Made by a program: the position numbers and the translations under genes. From Gammaproteobacteria bacterium (GTDB taxonomy: Bacteria > Pseudomonadota > Gammaproteobacteria > Enterobacterales > Kangiellaceae): a DNA stretch of 64,000 bases. Location of the stretch: the NCBI GenBank assembly GCA_013373375.1, contig JABXHY010000009.1, forward strand, positions 248,001 to 312,000, written 5' to 3'. Below the pieces are notes generated by a model that made no database searches, was not told where the DNA came from, and was given only the letters and a program-made list of their open reading frames with translations. Below, one piece after another: positions 20,144 to 30,758 of the stretch (position 1 is its first letter; each line of letters starts with the position of its first letter).

Positions 20144-20568
20144 TTAAAACTCCTCGGGTCTTTAATCTTTTATTTGATGAGAAACAGTATAGTCAACAAA
20201 TTGAGATTCGACATTGAAAGGCATTGCATTCGCGTGATGGATAATAAGGATGTAACCACGAATATTGGAGCAATCAAATTACAAACCGTAAATTTTAATT
20301 TTAAGTGACAGCCTCTCTCAACCTCAGCTCTCAGCCTTAGCACTCGGCCTTAGCACTCGGCCTTAGCCTTCAGGTATCCTATATTGCAATATAGTTTTAC
20401 TATTTATTTGTGTTTGCTTGACGCATTTAAAAGGGTAAGCCAGTATAAATTCAACGTTACTCGGTCCGCTTATCTCATACCAATCGAGTTATGGAAAAGA
20501 ACAGCTAAACAAGATATCGACTTATGTAATATCTCGTTAGTTTTCAATTCAATTTTATGGAGGAATAT
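20144..20568. other. 425-base gap with short tandem repeats and a palindrome
   Basis: No convincing gene. It holds a 13-base tandem repeat CCTTAGCACTCGG (20335-20347 and 20348-20360, with a partial third copy to 20366), followed 12 bases later by the perfect 16-base palindrome CTATATTGCAATATAG (20379-20394). The upstream part is the promoter side of the DHH gene and the downstream part leads to the cytochrome gene. Confidence 0.7.
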
Positions 20569-23500
20569 ATGAGGTATCTAAGTTATTTTGTTATTTTCAG
20601 CCTTTTATTACTGACACTTGGTTGCCAAGAATCCGATACCAGTTCCATTCAAAAGTCCACATCGAACTCGCCACAAACTGAAACGGTCAAGATTGACAAT
20701 ACACAACTTAGTATATTGGACGTTAATACAAAGTCGCTCGGGCAACCCTCAAACTTGCCATTACCTCATACAGAACCCTACTTAGACTACAAAGAAAAAC
20801 TTGATCGATTTATTCAGAGTCGAGAATACGTTCAACTTGGCTGGATGCACGACAAAGAAGTAAGAGACACAGGTCCATTTTTAGATGGCCAATATTACGG
20901 CACGCATCCCGCTGTTTTTATTTATTATTCGCCAGAGGCTATGCAGTGGTTAGCGAATGGACGTACTGGAACTATGCCAGACGGCGCTATGATCATTAAA
21001 GAAATGTTCACGCCGCCAGCAGCGATTTACAAAGAACTCAACCTACATTTAGGTGATGCCGAGTATTCAAAGTTACAGCCTGAGTTAATCGGCTCCTGGA
21101 CAGTGATGATTAAAGATTCTTCCGGCTCACAGGATGGTTGGTATTGGGCATCTGTTTCGAGAGACACTAAGCCATGTCCATCAACGGATACTATTCAAGC
21201 AACCGCTGCAGCAAATCCATTTGACGCACAGAGTCGCGACCAGGGATTCGCGTTACCCTGTATGCGCTGTCATGCTTCAGCAAAAATTGAATCAACCTTT
21301 ATTTCCACTCGCAACATTGCAGGGCTCAGCCCCGACGAAGATCCTCTGCGCTTTTTGAGTGATACATCGTGGCGCAGAGAAGATTATTTAAACACCTCTC
21401 CACTTTGTCACTTTCAATCCAAATTTCCGAAAACCTTCTTTTTGCCAAACCATCAGTTACCTTGGTCTGTTCAATCAAAACAAACCGCTGACGGTAGCGA
21501 TGATTTCCGAACCGAGCATGATAAAGTTTCTCCAAAGTTACAGAAGAAAAAATCAAAAGCAGCAACCGACGATTATATTAATCAAGATTTCATCAATACT
21601 TTTGGCAGTTTGTTTAAAACAATACCAGATTCAGCAAAGGCTTTCCCATCACAATGGTTTGATCATATTGTGCAAAACGGCGGAGAGCCTTCAAAGTATA
21701 TTACATCCGATAATTGCATAGGCTGCCATGGCGGCCTCGCTGGCGATAATTATGCCGTAACAATGTTTGTAAAAACTGGTGAAAAGTATGGTGCGGGTTA
21801 CGATGTATCAGAATACTCAGAGTGGCGCTGGTCTCCTATGGGACTTGCCGGTCGCGACCCAATTTTCCATGCTCAGCTTGAGTCAGAAATGGCGTATCTG
21901 GTACGTGATTCTAAAAATCCAAACTCAGGACTAAAAGGAACATTAGAGGATAATCAAAATGCAATAAGAAATACTTGCTTAAGTTGCCATGGAGCTATGG
22001 GACAAAGAACTCTGGCGGCCGATGCAAAAACTAATCCTCATTTGGATGCTAACTTTAAAGTCGACTACTTCTATTTTACTGAACAACTATCGTCGAAAAA
22101 ACCTCAAACAAAAGAAGAAGCCACCTATCATGAATACGGAGCATTGGCGAGAGACGGTATTAGTTGCATGATTTGCCATCATATAGCTGAACCCTCACAA
22201 GATGCAGTCGCCAATTGGAATCCTACAGAAAATAATTGGATAAACAATAAAACTCCAAAAGAACTCGCTTACCTATTGTTCCATAACAATACTGGACATT
22301 TCGATACGACTCCCAGTGATGTTGTGCATGGTCCGTATGACGTTAAAACAAAACCAATGGAACACACACTTGCGGTAAAGCCTGAAAAAAATAGCTTTAT
22401 TCAAGATTCACAATTATGCGGAACGTGCCATACCATAAATTTGCCAAACATCGGGGCAACCGAAAGTGAGTTTCCAGTGTTGGATGCAGCAGAGCAAAAC
22501 CCTGCTTTAAAGCAATACAGTCACTCGATAGAGCAAGCTACTTTTCTTGAGTGGCAAAACAGTAAATTCGCGCAACCTTCTGGCTTTCAAAGTTGTCAGG
22601 ATTGTCATATGTCGGGCAGCTTTGAGTCTTTAGATGGCGACATAAAAATCGGCCAGCTGATGACACAAATTGCGACTATTGAAGATTCAAGTTATCCAGA
22701 GGTTGATAAAAGCTTACCCAATGAAGAGATTGATATAGCGATTAGAGACGAATACTCTCGCCATACCTTGGTCGGTTTAAATGGTTTTCTTGTCAAAATG
22801 TTTGAGCAATTTGAATCGATATTAGGCGTTAGTTTGCAAAATGAAATGACCACACCATCGATTCCCTCTTATCAAGTTGCACTTGAAAGCATGATCCAGA
22901 ATGCACGAGACAAAACGGTAGATGTGGATCTAAAGCAGTTGTCATTCAACAACCAACAATTAAAACTTCAAGTAACCGTAAACAATAAAACTGGTCATCG
23001 ATTTCCAAGTGGTGTAGCTTTCCGTCGAGCTTTTATCGAGTTGAAAGTTAATCAAGGTGACAAAGTAATCTGGAGCTCAGGTGCCACTAATGATGCAGGC
23101 GTTATTGTTGATATGCAGGGCAACCCTCTGACAACAGAGTTTTTAACAACACCTGACGGTTATCAACCTCATCATCAGATAATTACCAAGGATACGCAGG
23201 TACAAATATACGAAGAGTTAACGCAAAACAATGCCGACCAGTTTACGACTAGCTTTGTTCATCGAGTCAATCATATTAAAGATAACCGATTACTACCGGA
23301 TGGATGGCGGCAATCATCTTTCTTTAAAGATCAGGGCGAGGTGATGCATCAATTTATGCAGGCAACCGATCCGTTAGGAGTCGGTAACGATCCAGATTAT
23401 CAAGATTCAGGAAATAGTTTTATTGGAAAAGACTCACTGTTGTACCAAATAGACTTAAAAAATATTAATGCCTCTGTGCCGCTAACGGCATCTGCGACAT

Positions 23501-23670
23501 TGTACTTTCAGGCAATTCCACCGTACTGGTTAAAGCAACGATTTGAAGCCGCACCAGATGGCGATGCTACTAAACGACTTTTCTACATTTCTAGCCGACT
23601 CGAATTGGAGAACTCTCCGCTACAGCAATGGAAGTTTAAGTTGGTCAGTAAATCTGTTGCAATTAAGTAA
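20569..23670 (+). CDS. Multihaem cytochrome c lipoprotein (six CxxCH)
   Basis: A 1033-residue exported cytochrome. A lipobox LTLGC puts the lipidated cysteine at residue 19. Six CxxCH haem-binding motifs start at residues 231, 383, 470, 533, 617 and 676 (CMRCH, CIGCH, CLSCH, CMICH, CGTCH, CQDCH). The region after residue 760 has no haem motif and contains NKTGHRFPSGVAFRRAF, a pattern seen in other large multihaem proteins. The ATG at 20569 is chosen because GGAGG ends five bases before it; an ATG at 20557 lies upstream of that site. No partner cytochrome, porin or maturation gene is adjacent. The substrate is unknown; a respiratory reductase or electron conduit is inferred. Confidence 0.85.
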   Translation: MRYLSYFVIFSLLLLTLGCQESDTSSIQKSTSNSPQTETVKIDNTQLSILDVNTKSLGQPSNLPLPHTEPYLDYKEKLDRFIQSREYVQLGWMHDKEVRDTGPFLDGQYYGTHPAVFIYYSPEAMQWLANGRTGTMPDGAMIIKEMFTPPAAIYKELNLHLGDAEYSKLQPELIGSWTVMIKDSSGSQDGWYWASVSRDTKPCPSTDTIQATAAANPFDAQSRDQGFALPCMRCHASAKIESTFISTRNIAGLSPDEDPLRFLSDTSWRREDYLNTSPLCHFQSKFPKTFFLPNHQLPWSVQSKQTADGSDDFRTEHDKVSPKLQKKKSKAATDDYINQDFINTFGSLFKTIPDSAKAFPSQWFDHIVQNGGEPSKYITSDNCIGCHGGLAGDNYAVTMFVKTGEKYGAGYDVSEYSEWRWSPMGLAGRDPIFHAQLESEMAYLVRDSKNPNSGLKGTLEDNQNAIRNTCLSCHGAMGQRTLAADAKTNPHLDANFKVDYFYFTEQLSSKKPQTKEEATYHEYGALARDGISCMICHHIAEPSQDAVANWNPTENNWINNKTPKELAYLLFHNNTGHFDTTPSDVVHGPYDVKTKPMEHTLAVKPEKNSFIQDSQLCGTCHTINLPNIGATESEFPVLDAAEQNPALKQYSHSIEQATFLEWQNSKFAQPSGFQSCQDCHMSGSFESLDGDIKIGQLMTQIATIEDSSYPEVDKSLPNEEIDIAIRDEYSRHTLVGLNGFLVKMFEQFESILGVSLQNEMTTPSIPSYQVALESMIQNARDKTVDVDLKQLSFNNQQLKLQVTVNNKTGHRFPSGVAFRRAFIELKVNQGDKVIWSSGATNDAGVIVDMQGNPLTTEFLTTPDGYQPHHQIITKDTQVQIYEELTQNNADQFTTSFVHRVNHIKDNRLLPDGWRQSSFFKDQGEVMHQFMQATDPLGVGNDPDYQDSGNSFIGKDSLLYQIDLKNINASVPLTASATLYFQAIPPYWLKQRFEAAPDGDATKRLFYISSRLELENSPLQQWKFKLVSKSVAIK

Positions 23671-24307: not shown

Positions 24308-24649
24308 TTAATCAGCATTATCGAGTCGTTGCCAGCCTTTTTTTGTGAGACAAGAGGATTGATTCGACGCCAGTTGATAACCTTTCTTTAATAACAAAGC
24401 AGAAAGAGCAACATTGCTAACCGAATTTTCTTCCATGGCCCTAGTTACTGTGCCAGCGGTTGCCAAAGCCACATCAGCTTTATCAAGTTGATGTGCTGAG
24501 TTTCGAGCAAAACAGTCTTGACTGTCGATAATGAGCTGTTGATTATTGCCGTCAACCACACCTAAGTTTGGGTGATAGAAACGAGCATTTTGCGAACTGA
24601 CACAACCTGTTAAAAATAATGTTACAAGCATGACGCTTTTATTCATCAT
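24308..24649 (-). CDS. Small lipoprotein of unknown function
   Basis: A 113-residue protein with a lipoprotein signal: hydrophobic VMLVTLFLTG then Cys16 in LTGC. The start is the first of two adjacent ATG codons, five bases after AGGAAGAG; the open frame extends further upstream but without such a site. The mature part has two cysteines (in DSQDCFA and SSCLTKKG), which could form a disulphide. I recognise no family. Confidence 0.6.
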   Translation of the reverse strand: MMNKSVMLVTLFLTGCVSSQNARFYHPNLGVVDGNNQQLIIDSQDCFARNSAHQLDKADVALATAGTVTRAMEENSVSNVALSALLLKKGYQLASNQSSCLTKKGWQRLDNAD

Positions 24650-24828
24650 AATATCTCTTCCTAAATTGAGGTTATCAGCCAACCGCACTGAGTATCACTT
24701 ATGAAGAACACTATACCAGTTAACACTAGAGTAAGACGTGATAATAATCACTCTAGTAATGCCAACTAAATTCAATTATTAATCATAAAAACCTAGGTCG
24801 TCTTAAATGTTTGTTAGACTGACCATTA

Positions 24829-27150
24829 TTAGCTGAAACTAACTCTTTCAAACTTCTTTTCTTTAAATTGCAAAAAGTCGAGTCGTTGGAATTTAAATAT
24901 CTTTGCTAAAATCACATCTGGAAAGACTTCAACTCGAGTATTGTAATACTCGACTGCATCGTTAAATCCTTCTCTCATCAACGATATTTCATTTTCCAGA
25001 TCGACAAGCTTATTCATTACGTTAATAACCAGCTGATTACTCTTTAAATCAGGGTATTTCTCTAACAACATTATCGTTTTATTCAAAACCTTTTGTTCAT
25101 ACTGCACCAGCTTTCCGATACGCTTGGGATCATTTTCATTTGCACCAAGATTTTTTCTTAGGCGAGTTATATGAGTCAATAACCGTTTCTCATGCTCCAT
25201 ATGTGTTTTGACCACCTTCTCCAAGTTTGGGATTAAGTCAAAACGTTTTTGCATGGACACTTCAATATTAGAGAAGTTTCGTTGGGCGCGTTGCTTTAAA
25301 AATATCAAATCGTTGTAATGCAGAATAAGCATAAAAGAAAACATATACGCAGGTGCTATAAGAGCCGCTATCAAATAGTCGATGGGAGCAAAACTGCCTT
25401 GCATCCCCAAGTAAAATAGAGAACCAAACATTAAACAAGCAAACGCCACACACAAGCTCAGCATTCCACCATAGGCTTTGCGATACATCAACGCGTCCTC
25501 GGCATAATTTGTAAAGATATAAGGCGTTCCCTTTTCATGGCGAATCTCAAGCTTATCGCCTTTCTCTTGATCAATTAAGGCAGGCCCTAGAAGATATACT
25601 TTGTCATTAATTTCAATTAGCTTTTCTGTGTACCTTCTGCTCCCTCTCCTTTCTGTATGCTTGGTTTTGCTTAATACTTCGGCATTCAGTAAATCTACTT
25701 TTATTTGTCCCGAGTGATCGTCAACCACAAACTCAGTGTGTGCGGTATCGTCTGTAATAGTCACCCACTTGGCGTCATCTCCGCTCCCTCGGCGCTCTTC
25801 AACAATGTATCGATACCAACAGCATGACGAAGACGTCAACGGACTTTTCATCGATTGATAGTCACTCAAGGTTTTAACTCTACCTTTTATTTCCGATAGT
25901 CCATAAGCTAACGCAGACAGTTTTGACGTAGGTAAATTCTCAATGTGTCGCTTCATCCTGATAAGTTTAAACGCCCAGAAAGATAAACCGCCGCAAACTA
26001 AAAAGCATACCATCATTATCCAGAATGAATAACCACCCGAAGTTTTTGTCGCATGGAAATCTGAAAGTTTTACATCTACAACAGCTTTTAACTCATTAGG
26101 AAGGGATTTATATATAGAAGGAATGTTTGTATCAATTAACCAGGCAATTGTATTGTTTGGAAATTGATGAAGTTGAGTTTCAAATTGTCTTTGTAAAAAT
26201 GCAGTGTCGGTTAACATATCATCTACTTGAGAGTTTCTAAGACGATTATCTTCCAAGTATTCAATTATGTCCCGCCACTGAGTACCATCACTAAATTCCT
26301 CTCCGACAGTTTCAAGAATTCGTTTCCGCATTTCCGCTTCACGTTGAATCAACAGGTCACTGGTACCGGAAACATCAAAGTAAATCATACTATACCCTTG
26401 ATTAACCAAAGGGATGATTGCAGAAAAACTTAAAATCATCAAAAAAGCCAATATTCTATGAATGCCAAGAGTGACCACTAAAGTCAGTGCAGCCAAAGCA
26501 AATAATGAAATACCACCACATACTTTTAAAATGACTGCTAAGCCGATGTCTTCTTTTTCCTGATCTTCGGAATATTTGGATAAAAGAGCTGGAAACTGCC
26601 CTTCTGTTAAAAAAGAAACTTCCGCAGGCTTCGACAGGTCATCTTGAGGCTCCCTGTAACCGAGTAAGAATAGAGTATCATTAGGTTCAATTCGCCACTC
26701 GGTGTAGCGCATATCCCCTTTCGTTGATCGTTGTGAGATCGGCAATGAAAATTGCGTGTCAGAATCAGCAGCAGACCACGCTTTTATTAATACTCGTCCA
26801 GATTCATCATACGCGTAAAAATTAATCGCTTTTGAATTTGAGTAGACTGTATTCCAGGAGGTATTGCCATCAGAGTCGACTTCTTCTTCCTCTTGTCGAT
26901 AATCGTAATAAACACTTGGCGTTTGAAAAAACTCACTGGTAACAAATTTCTGTTTAGGATCAACCGTAACTTTTAGCTTAACCGGACCTGGTAATGAAGA
27001 AGCCACTTTGCTAATGGGATAGCGCTCAATTTGATACAGAGATCTTATTTCCTGAACACCCGATTGTGTTAACAACCAGGCGACTATTCCAAATCCAAGC
27101 GTTAAAACACCAAATAATAATTTTTGGAAAATACTTCCATGCAGCAACAT
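24829..27150 (-). CDS. Large membrane protein with two GIDE/BAM-like modules and a C-terminal LemA domain
   Basis: A 773-residue protein with about six membrane helices (10-28, 203-225, 230-252, 374-396, 562-584, 590-612). Two soluble modules, about 40-190 and 405-545, share a pattern (SP-like start, CCWYRYIVEER or VYYDYRQEEEE, then a strand ending DTLFLLG or DKVYLLG) like the GIDE/BAM domain of the mitochondrial E3 ligase MULAN and its bacterial relatives, but no RING finger is present. Residues 610-765 match LemA (RAQRNFSNIEVSMQKRFDLIPNL, then EGFNDAVEYYNTRVEVFPD). GGAG precedes the ATG. It is the last gene of the ATP-grasp/alpha-E operon, 54 bases after the alpha-E stop. The function is unknown. 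Confidence 0.7.
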   Translation of the reverse strand: MLLHGSIFQKLLFGVLTLGFGIVAWLLTQSGVQEIRSLYQIERYPISKVASSLPGPVKLKVTVDPKQKFVTSEFFQTPSVYYDYRQEEEEVDSDGNTSWNTVYSNSKAINFYAYDESGRVLIKAWSAADSDTQFSLPISQRSTKGDMRYTEWRIEPNDTLFLLGYREPQDDLSKPAEVSFLTEGQFPALLSKYSEDQEKEDIGLAVILKVCGGISLFALAALTLVVTLGIHRILAFLMILSFSAIIPLVNQGYSMIYFDVSGTSDLLIQREAEMRKRILETVGEEFSDGTQWRDIIEYLEDNRLRNSQVDDMLTDTAFLQRQFETQLHQFPNNTIAWLIDTNIPSIYKSLPNELKAVVDVKLSDFHATKTSGGYSFWIMMVCFLVCGGLSFWAFKLIRMKRHIENLPTSKLSALAYGLSEIKGRVKTLSDYQSMKSPLTSSSCCWYRYIVEERRGSGDDAKWVTITDDTAHTEFVVDDHSGQIKVDLLNAEVLSKTKHTERRGSRRYTEKLIEINDKVYLLGPALIDQEKGDKLEIRHEKGTPYIFTNYAEDALMYRKAYGGMLSLCVAFACLMFGSLFYLGMQGSFAPIDYLIAALIAPAYMFSFMLILHYNDLIFLKQRAQRNFSNIEVSMQKRFDLIPNLEKVVKTHMEHEKRLLTHITRLRKNLGANENDPKRIGKLVQYEQKVLNKTIMLLEKYPDLKSNQLVINVMNKLVDLENEISLMREGFNDAVEYYNTRVEVFPDVILAKIFKFQRLDFLQFKEKKFERVSFS

Positions 27151-27204
27151 CGCTTACTCCAGACCTACAACCGCTAATTTTTGTGCATCTACACCAAAGA
27201 AGTA

Positions 27205-28125
27205 TCAAAAATAACTCTGAGACACCTCTGAGTCAATTTCAATTAATCCTTGCTGCATTCGGTCAATAAACTCGTGGAGCTTGTCTTGCTTTAATTTGGC
27301 TGGCTCAGCACCCAGTAAGTAAGATTTTATCTGCTTTACTTTCTCAGTTGCAGCTTTGTTGTTCGGTAACTCTTCAATCGACTGTTCAACTTGTTCTACG
27401 GCGTGAATTAGAGAACGAGGGAAACGAGGTTCAAGTAACAAAAACGAAAGAACATCGTCGCGATTGATTCTCACCCGCACTTTTCTTCGATACATTTGGT
27501 AAGCTGTCATCGACTTTAAAACTCCCATCCATTGAATGTTCTTAAAAGTTCGAAGCTCATTATCAACATCAGGTAACAAAGACGCCGAACGTACATCAAC
27601 TAATCGAGTTGACATGTCGCCGCGCTCTAAATTTCGTCCCATTCGAATAAATGAATAAGCTTCATCATGAGTCATGGTTCCGGCAAGTAAACCCGTAATA
27701 GTTTGATGAGCCAAAATTATGTTGGATAAATAACTGTAACGAGTGCTGCGCGTAAATGCATCTGATTTATTGTCGACGACCTGTAAATAAATATTATTTA
27801 TTTGCTCCCAAGCTTCTCGCGGAATAATCTCTCTCACGGTTCGTGCATTTTCGCGAGCAAAGTACAGCGAATTAATAATGGAGCCTGGATTACTCTGGTC
27901 AAGCACCATAAAATTCACAACACTTTTTTCATCCGCTTCTTTATAATTTTGATAGAAGATGTCTCGAAATGAAAGAATATCAATAATCGGCTGCCAACCT
28001 AATTTTATATTTTTGGGCAAGTCCAACAGTAAGTGAGAATTTACGTTTATGAGTCTTGCTGTGTTTTCTGCACGCTCCAGGTATCTTGCCAACCAATAAA
28101 GATTATTCGCGACTCTCGATAACAT
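27205..28125 (-). CDS. Alpha-E domain protein (DUF403/COG2307)
   Basis: A 306-residue, mostly helical protein starting MLSRVANNLYWLARYLERAEN, the hallmark of the alpha-E family. These proteins almost always sit beside circularly permuted ATP-grasp enzymes and are thought to act with them in peptide or amide-bond synthesis. GGAGGAG lies seven bases before the chosen ATG, which follows the ATP-grasp stop by a single base, so translation is probably coupled. The open frame extends further upstream but only by overlapping its neighbour. Confidence 0.88.
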   Translation of the reverse strand: MLSRVANNLYWLARYLERAENTARLINVNSHLLLDLPKNIKLGWQPIIDILSFRDIFYQNYKEADEKSVVNFMVLDQSNPGSIINSLYFARENARTVREIIPREAWEQINNIYLQVVDNKSDAFTRSTRYSYLSNIILAHQTITGLLAGTMTHDEAYSFIRMGRNLERGDMSTRLVDVRSASLLPDVDNELRTFKNIQWMGVLKSMTAYQMYRRKVRVRINRDDVLSFLLLEPRFPRSLIHAVEQVEQSIEELPNNKAATEKVKQIKSYLLGAEPAKLKQDKLHEFIDRMQQGLIEIDSEVSQSYF

Positions 28126-28126
28126 G

Positions 28127-29581
28127 TTAAGACTCCTCCATATCGACAATCCAAGTATCTTTGCTTCCACCACCTTGCGAAGAATTCACCACAGTAGAAC
28201 CTTCGACAAGTGCCACTCGAGTAAGGCCTCCAGCCGTTACTTTGATGTCTTTACCAGATAGAATAAAAGGTCTTAAGTCAAGATGACGAGGGGCAACTCG
28301 ATTTCCGACCATAGTTGGTGCAGTAGAAAGAATCAGCATTGGCTGAGCAACATAGTTACGCGGATCTTTTTTTATCAATCGTCGAAATTTTTCATGTTCT
28401 TTTGGTTTCGCATGGGGACCGATTAACATCCCGTAACCTCCCGACTCATTGGCCGGCTTGACCACCATATCAGCAATGTTCTCAAGCACGTACTCTCGTT
28501 CTTTTTTATTGTTGCACTTATAAGTCGGAACGTTAGGCAATATTGCTTCTTCTCCAAGATAATACTGAATAATTTGAGGGACAAACGCGTAGACAACTTT
28601 ATCATCGGCAACTCCAGATCCAGGAGCATTAGCCAGTGCGACATTACCCGCTTTCCATGCTCTAATAAGTCCGGGCACACCCAATACAGAATCTGGATTA
28701 AAAGCCTCCGGATCAATAAACCAATCGTCGATTCTTCGATAGATAACATCAACTCTCTCTAAGCCTCTAATCGTGCGCATATAAACACAATCATCTTTAC
28801 CAACGACTAAGTCATCTCCTTGAACTAACTCTGCACCCATCTGTTGTGCTAAGTAGGCATGTTCGAAATAAGCGGAGTTATAAATACCGGGAGTCAGAAC
28901 AACTATTTCTGGCTCTTCAATTTGACGAGGAGACATTTCAACCAACATGTCATACAACTGAGAGGGGTAATCATCGACCGGCAAAATATTATATTGCTCG
29001 AACATTTCAGGTAATACACGCTTCATCACCTGACGATTTTCAAGCATGTAGGAAACACCCGATGGGACCCTTAAGTTATCTTCTAAAACATATATTTGTC
29101 CTTCGTTATCACGGACTAAATCAGAACCACAAATATGAGCCCAAATACCATGTGGAGGATGCACTCCGCGACATTCTTCTAGAAAGTTTTTCGATTTTTT
29201 TAATAAGCTGGCAGGAAAGACACCATCTTTTATTATTTTTTGATCGTTATATAAATCATCAATAAATAAATTAAGCGCTTTAACTCTTTGCTTTAGTCCT
29301 CGCTCAACAACTTCCCACTCTTTCTTATCGATCAATCTCGGCACAAGATCGAATGGCCATGCGCGATCAATGGAGCCTTCTTCTTGATGATAAACCCGGA
29401 ATGTAATCCCCATAACATGGATGGTACTGTCTGAAGCAGCTTTCAGTCGAGTGAGCTCTTTATCCGTTAGTGATTTTAAGTGCTCACAGAGTTCAAATGA
29501 ATAGGCCCTTGGTTTTCCAGCCTTTAACATTAGTTCATCATGAAATGGTCCGACTTTGTAGCTTCCCCATCTAATTGCCAT
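28127..29581 (-). CDS. Circularly permuted ATP-grasp protein (COG2308)
   Basis: A 484-residue member of the circularly permuted ATP-grasp family (DUF404/DUF407), proposed to ligate amino acids or peptides with ATP. Visible motifs are the YVLEDNLRVPSGVSYMLENR block (about 165-183), YRRIDDWFID near 281-290, and the nucleotide-binding KPANESGGYG at about 375-384. The chosen ATG follows an AAAGG site; an ATG eleven codons earlier is possible. It is followed immediately by the alpha-E gene, as in the known pairing. The acceptor substrate is unknown. Confidence 0.9.
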   Translation of the reverse strand: MAIRWGSYKVGPFHDELMLKAGKPRAYSFELCEHLKSLTDKELTRLKAASDSTIHVMGITFRVYHQEEGSIDRAWPFDLVPRLIDKKEWEVVERGLKQRVKALNLFIDDLYNDQKIIKDGVFPASLLKKSKNFLEECRGVHPPHGIWAHICGSDLVRDNEGQIYVLEDNLRVPSGVSYMLENRQVMKRVLPEMFEQYNILPVDDYPSQLYDMLVEMSPRQIEEPEIVVLTPGIYNSAYFEHAYLAQQMGAELVQGDDLVVGKDDCVYMRTIRGLERVDVIYRRIDDWFIDPEAFNPDSVLGVPGLIRAWKAGNVALANAPGSGVADDKVVYAFVPQIIQYYLGEEAILPNVPTYKCNNKKEREYVLENIADMVVKPANESGGYGMLIGPHAKPKEHEKFRRLIKKDPRNYVAQPMLILSTAPTMVGNRVAPRHLDLRPFILSGKDIKVTAGGLTRVALVEGSTVVNSSQGGGSKDTWIVDMEES

Positions 29582-29663
29582 TTGATTACCTTTCGTTTTA
29601 TTCGATTCGATCAAGCAACTGAAAATTTTGTGCGGTCTATTGCACTAATGACTCCTAAGAAAC

Positions 29664-30758
29664 TTAACGACTCAAGTCATTATTAAATTTGTGTATCACC
29701 TGATGCACAAACCTCAGTTTATTTAATGACGACAGTGAAATGATAAACGGATAGGCGTCATCCATTCCCATACTGCGATTCAAGCCATTGAGAACACGAG
29801 CAAGACCACACCAATGGTTAAACATTTCTGTAAAGCCTTCTTCTATTTGTACGTCATTTTTAAATTCTTTATGCACATATGGATTTGATATTAATTGACT
29901 ACCAATACTCAACTCTAAATTGTTCGCTGTTTCGAGAGTATCGACCATATGTAAATAATGAGCCCATGTTTCTGCCCAGTCTTCCCATGGATGCATTGAT
30001 GCATAAGCACTTATCCATGTTTCTTGCCAATTGTTTGCCGGACCATTTTTATAGTAATGGGACAAAGACTCTTGATAGTCTATGCGTTCATCGCCAAATA
30101 AAGCTCGAAACTCTGTAATTTTTTCCGTTTCGTTAATCAACCGATCCCAATAATAATGTCCAGACTCGTGCCGTAAATGACCAACCAATGTTCGATAACT
30201 CTCTTTCATTTTTTCTCGCATATCGATACGAAAGGCATGGTCTGCTTCTTTTAAATTAATAGTAATTAACCCATTATTATGACCTGTTATTACAAACTCT
30301 TTTATGGTTAACTCATTTCCAAAACTGTCTTCAACTAAATCTTCTAAAAAAGCAAATTCAAGTCCTGCTTCAGGATCATCAACTTTGTTTTTTACCGGTA
30401 AATTTAACTTAATAACCGAATACAACAGCCGACGCTTCGCTTGTTCTAACAAAAACCACAACCGTAAATTATTGTCTTTGGCAATATCCGGTGTTCGCTG
30501 CGTTAATCGACAAGACATGCAATAGTCGGTGTTGTCTTCCAGATCGACCATCCAGTTGCAAACGTCGTTATTTTTGTAATTTTTGCATGGGCGATAACGC
30601 TTGTTATCGAAACTTGACAACCATACTTCTTGATCGGTTTCAGTGAACGCACTTAAATACTGCACTCTCGGAATAAAGCCTAACGCAAGGCCACACTTCA
30701 CACACTTAGTGTTTGGAAAATGCAATTCATTACCGCACTGACATGAAAACGTTAACAA
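29664..30758 (-). CDS. Zinc-ribbon putative metallopeptidase (COG4307)
   Basis: A 364-residue cytoplasmic protein with an N-terminal zinc ribbon (Cys6, Cys8, Cys19, Cys22), a second cysteine set (Cys58, Cys67, Cys80, Cys83) and a gluzincin-like active site H197-E-S-G-H201 in LRHESGHYYW, with a likely third ligand in EDWAETWAHYLH near 260. This is the uncharacterised zinc-binding metallopeptidase family that often accompanies alpha-E/ATP-grasp genes. It is the first gene of the four-gene operon, 82 bases before the ATP-grasp start, and may trim or release a peptide product. Confidence 0.85.
   Translation of the reverse strand: MLTFSCQCGNELHFPNTKCVKCGLALGFIPRVQYLSAFTETDQEVWLSSFDNKRYRPCKNYKNNDVCNWMVDLEDNTDYCMSCRLTQRTPDIAKDNNLRLWFLLEQAKRRLLYSVIKLNLPVKNKVDDPEAGLEFAFLEDLVEDSFGNELTIKEFVITGHNNGLITINLKEADHAFRIDMREKMKESYRTLVGHLRHESGHYYWDRLINETEKITEFRALFGDERIDYQESLSHYYKNGPANNWQETWISAYASMHPWEDWAETWAHYLHMVDTLETANNLELSIGSQLISNPYVHKEFKNDVQIEEGFTEMFNHWCGLARVLNGLNRSMGMDDAYPFIISLSSLNKLRFVHQVIHKFNNDLSR

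Follow-up and report, generated by a model that had tools for sequence, protein, structure and literature searches.

Genes and features at the locus

In the window (the whole stretch of 64,000 nucleotides that was analysed), an intact open reading frame (ORF) at 24829–27150 on the minus strand, starting with ATG, encodes a 773-aa protein, and a likely ribosome-binding site, GGAG, was read from the sequence six bases 5′ of the start codon (27157–27160, minus strand). The encoded chain runs from transmembrane (TM) helix 1 through GIDE module 1, TM2/3, a helical middle domain, TM4, GIDE module 2 and TM5/6 to a LemA domain. Upstream of and co-directional with this fusion gene is a trio of genes (27205–30758, minus strand) that Pfam assigned to Peptidase_Mx with a zinc ribbon, CP_ATPgrasp_2 and Alpha-E. 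The genes of the trio and the fusion gene are separated by about 50 bp or overlap, and the fusion gene follows 54 bp behind the Alpha-E gene, with no terminator-like site listed between the two. A promoter-like site was found just before the fusion gene (27236–27208, minus strand); note that such sites were not commoner than expected by chance (20 observed against 18.8 in shuffles).

The Pfam LemA model matched residues 626–766 with an E-value of 2.2e-38 and 131.9 bits (curated cut-off 26.2), and the Pfam GIDE model matched the whole protein with an E-value of 9.8e-12 and 45.1 bits (curated cut-off 23.6) in two stretches, the best of which, residues 458–559, lies in module 2. Both families were matched by all seven full-length proteins, the window protein included. 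A C-terminal RING finger of the MULAN/MAPL type gave no Pfam match in the window protein or in the seven full-length proteins, and none of the seven full-length fusion proteins has a CxxC pair. An E3 ligase identity of the window protein was rejected because of the missing RING, and the Pfam label of the GIDE family, "E3 Ubiquitin ligase", is misleading here since the proteins are RING-less. No kinase, cyclase or DNA-binding output domain scored over the Pfam cut-off in the fusion chain. The PADLOC models of anti-phage defence, applied at E ≤ 0.01, returned 0 families for the fusion and the three upstream genes, and a known anti-phage defence system was therefore also rejected.

Module 1 (residues about 45–195; 26566–27018, minus strand) and module 2 (residues 400–562; 25465–25953, minus strand) are homologous. 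When profiles of the seven proteins were compared by hhalign, module 1 (residues 32–200) aligned with module 2 (residues 400–562) at 99.5% probability and an E-value of 4.2e-23 over 150 columns with 25% identity, and the value was 99.7% when their helices were included, as compared with at most 5.3% in five control comparisons (the middle domain with module 1, module 2 and LemA, and LemA with each of the modules). Furthermore, module 1 alone matched Pfam GIDE at E ≤ 1e-3 in the relatives G112, G177 and G016. A preliminary description of this DNA had put forward two related GIDE modules and a LemA domain in one six-helix chain that lacks a RING finger, and each of these features was recovered; modules without relation to GIDE, or modules unrelated to each other, were outcomes that we looked for and did not obtain. 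The helical middle domain (residues 253–372; 26035–26394, minus strand), for which no relative was identified, changes fastest: its mean pairwise identity is 22%, and module 1 (40%), LemA (48%) and module 2 (49%) are all better conserved. We regard this structural description of the fusion protein as highly probable.

The AlphaFold model of the whole protein had a mean pLDDT of 78.9 and a pTM of 0.66; it contains helices in the middle domain and strands in both modules, with the main strands in the same order. Module 2 modelled alone with 48 aligned sequences reached a pLDDT of 84.3. The predicted model of the LemA four-helix domain (residues 613–766; 24853–25314, minus strand) superimposed on the structure 2etd with a Z of 16.8 and an rmsd of 1.9 over 140 residues of the 141-residue chain, and with a TM-score of 0.88 by target length. 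For the GIDE modules, Foldseek gave no match at E ≤ 0.001, and its top matches, antibody chains with TM-scores of about 0.1, were ignored. A second-look structural aligner, in which the absence of a family from the rows does not exclude that family, gave a best Z of 8.9 (rmsd 5.4 over 94) for module 2 and of 7.7 (rmsd 6.5 over 91) for module 1, both in or near the warning range of the tool, and its rows were largely single-strand-binding, RPA, tRNA-synthetase and MCM chains, which we take to be OB-folds. Both modules thus model as beta-barrels, and their likeness to an OB-fold is a lead that is no more than suggestive. A sequence search found no solved GIDE structure, and an OB-fold did not occur alongside the MAPL names among the literature matches listed.

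Hydropathy placed TM1 at residues about 11–29 (27064–27120; helix 7–43 in the model), TM2 and TM3 at residues about 210–251 (26398–26523), TM4 at residues about 376–394 (25969–26025), followed by the basic stretch KLIRMKRHIENLP, and TM5 and TM6 at residues 563–610 (25321–25464; helix 589–650 in the model), all on the minus strand. Six membrane helices were predicted in six of the seven fusions, and in the remaining one an additional segment was predicted within LemA. Hydropathy and the model helices together predict a GIDE module between two membrane helices. If there are six, LemA is predicted to share a membrane face with module 2, opposite to the face that carries module 1 and the middle domain. 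The net charge after TM4 in the seven fusions was +2, +2, +2, +2, +2, +1 and +1, that after TM6 was +1 to +2, and the charge before TM2 and after TM3 was mostly negative or zero; charges around TM1 were weak. The positive charge after TM4 and TM6 and the negative charge before TM2 favour an orientation in which module 2 and LemA would be cytoplasmic and module 1 periplasmic. However, the weak TM1 charges count against this placement of LemA, as does a passage of a review (PMC3905215) that predicts the C-terminal domain of LemA on the outer/lumen side. Single GIDE proteins agree with the charge-based orientation: among 29 examined, 22 have two predicted helices, and the charge averaged +1.9 on each of the two sides facing GIDE and −1.0 ahead of TM1.

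Distribution and origin of the fusion

The preliminary description had called the architecture unusual and had proposed a search for it elsewhere. We found it at full length in six other genomes and, with the own genome included, in 5 of 41 near relatives, 3 of 274 genomes of the class and 2 of 295 genomes of the order. The fusion is conserved end to end, with 30–57% identity to the six relatives, indicating that the ORF is not a chance frame, and its full-length occurrence in six other genomes indicates a family that is real, though rare. Its distribution is patchy, yet the architecture is conserved. In the GIDE tree, modules 1 and modules 2 each formed one clade, and in both clades G112 and then G177 branched outside the rest; the sister relation of the two clades had a low support of 45. 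This shared deep order fits a single old origin of the fusion, as far as can be read from "quick" trees with single support values, and note that in the LemA tree long branches (G112 and G177) meet.

Among the plasmid and phage records with a match (89 and 15, respectively), no place covered 80% of the protein, and the plasmid and phage matches listed (20 and 10, respectively) lay in or around LemA. Two plasmid records were matched when the module 2 unit was used as the query. As a side observation, four of the 15 phage records that match the window protein are Listeria phages, and the ten listed matches are in the LemA part.

Separate lemA and gide genes in related bacteria

LemA and GIDE are families already known, and the link between them is the more interesting part. 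In the literature on LemA with GIDE, we found no paper linking the two families, and an earlier mention may nevertheless exist. In the sample of 274 genomes of the class, Pfam GIDE matched 59 genomes; GIDE counts are lower bounds, since the same model fails to detect the window protein when run on six-frame translations. A lemA match on the same strand and no more than 1.2 kb upstream accompanied at least 49 of the 59 places with a single GIDE, which remained of 64 GIDE rows after removal of four that belong to fusions and of one that was a further stretch of a gene already counted. All 59 GIDE genomes were also matched by the window protein, a result that was set aside because this query contains GIDE. 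Loci with a fusion, rows that were duplicates and L107, which is broken, were excluded from the single-gene counts and trees. Among the 30 best loci of the class, lemA lies directly upstream of gide in 26, with gaps of −74 to 98 bp, and L075 holds both genes, with the gap hidden by an over-extended ORF. GIDE genes without lemA within the flanks were found at L065, L078 and L091, and likewise at L113 and in the archaeal record L140; in most loci the pairing labels take in only some 1.5 kb to either side. In the phylum sample, GIDE matched 11 of 398 genomes, 10 of which belong to the same class, and the newly fetched intact single-GIDE loci (L100–L105 and L108) were paired with lemA in seven of seven cases, a count from which the broken, sub-cut-off L107 was left out. 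This relation between pair and fusion, like the domains, the module homology and the conservation, was obtained directly by computation.

The gammaproteobacterial pair combines the same two families as the fusion, and the two-helix layout of a single GIDE protein is that of the module 2 unit. It differs from the fusion in that it consists of two genes, lacks a second module and a helical domain, and usually has the order lemA-gide, the reverse of that in the fusion. At three loci of the same order of bacteria (L114, L115 and L117), gide is directly followed by lemA, as in the fusion, and the GIDEs of these loci are diverged and lie on a long branch of the GIDE tree. A Burkholderiales contig (L003:5662–8409) carries lemA-gide-gide, i.e., one LemA and two GIDEs together as in the fusion; however, these are three genes, and the two GIDEs group together (97), indicating an independent tandem duplication. 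Two further arrangements were noted. A diverged GIDE-like gene stands between two lemA genes in the same-order genome G605 (L112:767–2661) and on a Providencia alcalifaciens plasmid (L139:3092–5261), where the GIDE-like gene is under the Pfam cut-off.

An EF-hand loop follows the GIDE domain in 28 of 30 class loci (L062–L091) and in 44 of 55 single GIDEs overall, as compared with none of the seven fusions; Pfam EF-hand_5 was over its cut-off in L127 and just under it in L137. The absence of this loop suggests that the function of the fusion may differ from that of the single GIDEs.

Separate LemA proteins (PF04011) are mostly about 190 aa and share with the fusion the C-terminal fold and a TM helix directly before the domain, whereas the LemA of the window protein is the tail of a six-helix chain, and the fused LemAs have a clade of their own. 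In a tree of 90 LemA domains, the seven fused domains formed one clade (99) on a long branch outside both other groups. One of these groups consists of 50 non-fused domains, all from loci with a GIDE gene; 46 are labelled paired, and L075, L114, L115 and L117 are labelled unpaired though they hold a GIDE gene. The other 33 domains, from loci without a GIDE gene, form the other branch. A gene for an M48 peptidase adjoins LemA in 27 of 33 unpaired loci (the exceptions being L026, L030, L032, L037, L040 and L045, of which two, L030 and L045, are truncated by the end of their contig) versus 0 of 45 paired loci. By this tree, the GIDE-associated LemAs are a branch apart from the LemAs beside M48 peptidases. 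The genome of the window itself has, in addition to the fusion, an ordinary lemA with an M48 peptidase gene behind it (L061:6541–9061). Homologues of M3 oligopeptidase (Pfam-confirmed for one) were found in 11 of 20 wider pair loci; M3 is the next gene downstream in six clear layouts (L120, L127, L128, L134, L136 and L137), and in L121 two small ORFs lie between.

Possible role of the fusion protein

We propose, with a probability of about 0.5, that the fusion is the single-chain form of a lemA + gide membrane complex and acts as a non-catalytic inner-membrane scaffold, probably in membrane proteostasis or stress. The fusion would be a one-chain version of a complex that related bacteria make from two genes. 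In this arrangement, TM4-module 2-TM5 would be the counterpart of a single GIDE protein and TM6-LemA that of an ordinary LemA, with TM6 replacing its N-terminal TM helix, and a second unit (TM1-module 1-TM2/3-helical domain) would have been added at the N-terminus. The GIDE modules, next to the membrane, may recognise a client or sense a condition of the membrane, and partners may be gathered by the LemA bundle, most likely in membrane proteostasis or a stress response. The pair/fusion relation, a Rosetta-stone case, indicates a shared process for LemA and GIDE and a probable contact between them, and the chain has no recognisable catalytic domain, which makes a scaffold or adaptor most likely; a physical LemA–GIDE complex and a scaffold role in proteostasis are inferred. 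On the other hand, the usual gene order is the reverse of that in the fusion and the loci in fusion order carry diverged GIDEs, both of which count against the one-chain reading, as do the GIDE loci without a nearby lemA and the position of the fused LemA clade outside both groups. Proteostasis is favoured by the metallopeptidase genes that recur beside LemA; however, genes of both the M3 and the M48 type are common, and proximity is no proof that genes serve the same process. The cellular role assigned to the fusion is a tentative one.

The GIDE domain is best known from mitochondrial MULAN/MAPL. As predicted for the fusion, the BAM domain (GIDE/BAM, PF12483) lies between two membrane helices in MAPL, according to the part of PMC4457424 that treats it, and the prokaryotic sequences described there as used in that study have no RING. 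The fusion differs from MAPL in having two modules on predicted opposite sides of the membrane, no RING, and LemA instead. The natural fusion and the dense gene pairing place LemA and GIDE/BAM, both without settled function, in one process; their occurrence as separate neighbouring genes in relatives suggests that the partners work together and gives a lead on the first role of the mitochondrial domain. It is possible, though in our estimate doubtful, that BAM/GIDE is a membrane-side OB-type barrel with LemA as its ancestral bacterial partner. LemA–GIDE would then be a membrane complex of bacteria that has gone unrecognised and often carries a loop for calcium binding, and MAPL would have been derived late, with a RING finger as the effector part in the place of LemA. 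The pair, the fusion and the EF-hand variant are simple bacterial systems for testing the role of BAM/GIDE.

Other functions of the fusion are conceivable. LemA and GIDE could shape or sort patches of the inner membrane (invagination, vesicles), so that the fusion would be a one-chain membrane-shaping unit, which we consider unlikely. MamQ (NF040966), a member of the LemA family in magnetosome bacteria, is needed for normal magnetosome membranes and has been proposed as an organising hub, as stated in a portion of PMC4902198, and mitochondria-derived vesicles carry MAPL, which also has an effect on the shape of mitochondria, as stated in a portion of PMC4457424. The LemA part of the fusion matches the MamQ model partially; nevertheless, it scored 87 bits where 250 are needed, and MamQ membership was rejected. 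Moreover, the same portion of PMC4457424 notes that most MAPL studies concern the RING domain, which the fusion lacks, and the seven neighbours identified at four of the six other fusion loci (two molybdopterin/complex-I-like oxidoreductase subunits, a THAP4-like heme-binding protein, an M4 peptidase, an acyltransferase, an FKBP and a DEAD-box helicase) include no membrane-shaping genes. A role in transmembrane signalling, in which module 1 and the helical domain would sense one side and relay to module 2 and LemA, and the EF-hand loop would make the two-gene systems calcium-responsive, would agree with modules on opposite sides of the membrane and with the loop in 28 of 30 single GIDEs, including the EF-hand_5 matches. 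However, the chain has no output domain of the kinds sought, the loop is missing from the fusions, and the opposite sides are themselves a prediction from sequence; we judge this role quite improbable.

The preliminary description had further suggested that the ligand of the GIDE modules could be a modified peptide or protein that the operon produces, i.e., a product of the upstream Peptidase_Mx, ATP-grasp and Alpha-E genes. The co-directional genes, their tight gaps and the missing terminator-like site agree with this, and a role of such systems in peptide synthesis or modification is stated, by citation, in a passage of PMC3597751. The promoter-like site before the fusion gene speaks against it, with the reservation that such sites occur at shuffle frequency. 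No ORF matched the trio genes in 18–19 kb around the six other full-length fusions, and the ATP-grasp gene was found in only two of the seven fusion genomes. In G001, of the same genus, the trio is intact with 73–91% identity and stands on contig C21 (L146) without a fusion behind it, the fusion being on C18. Thus, the link of the fusion to the upstream ATP-grasp genes was rejected, the idea of an operon product as ligand is very unlikely, and the closeness of trio and fusion in the window is most likely a local event; the interpretation given in the preliminary description is, overall, partly supported. Among the six other fusion loci, only three of one genus (L052–L054) share neighbours, and the fusion alone is common to all.

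Two other genes of the window were noted. Downstream of the fusion gene, 24308–24688 (minus strand) encodes 126 aa with a lipoprotein-like start, as judged by eye, and no family over the cut-off. At 20557–23670 (plus strand), a 1037-aa protein is encoded that has a Cytochrome_P460 match and several weaker matches to multihaem cytochromes.
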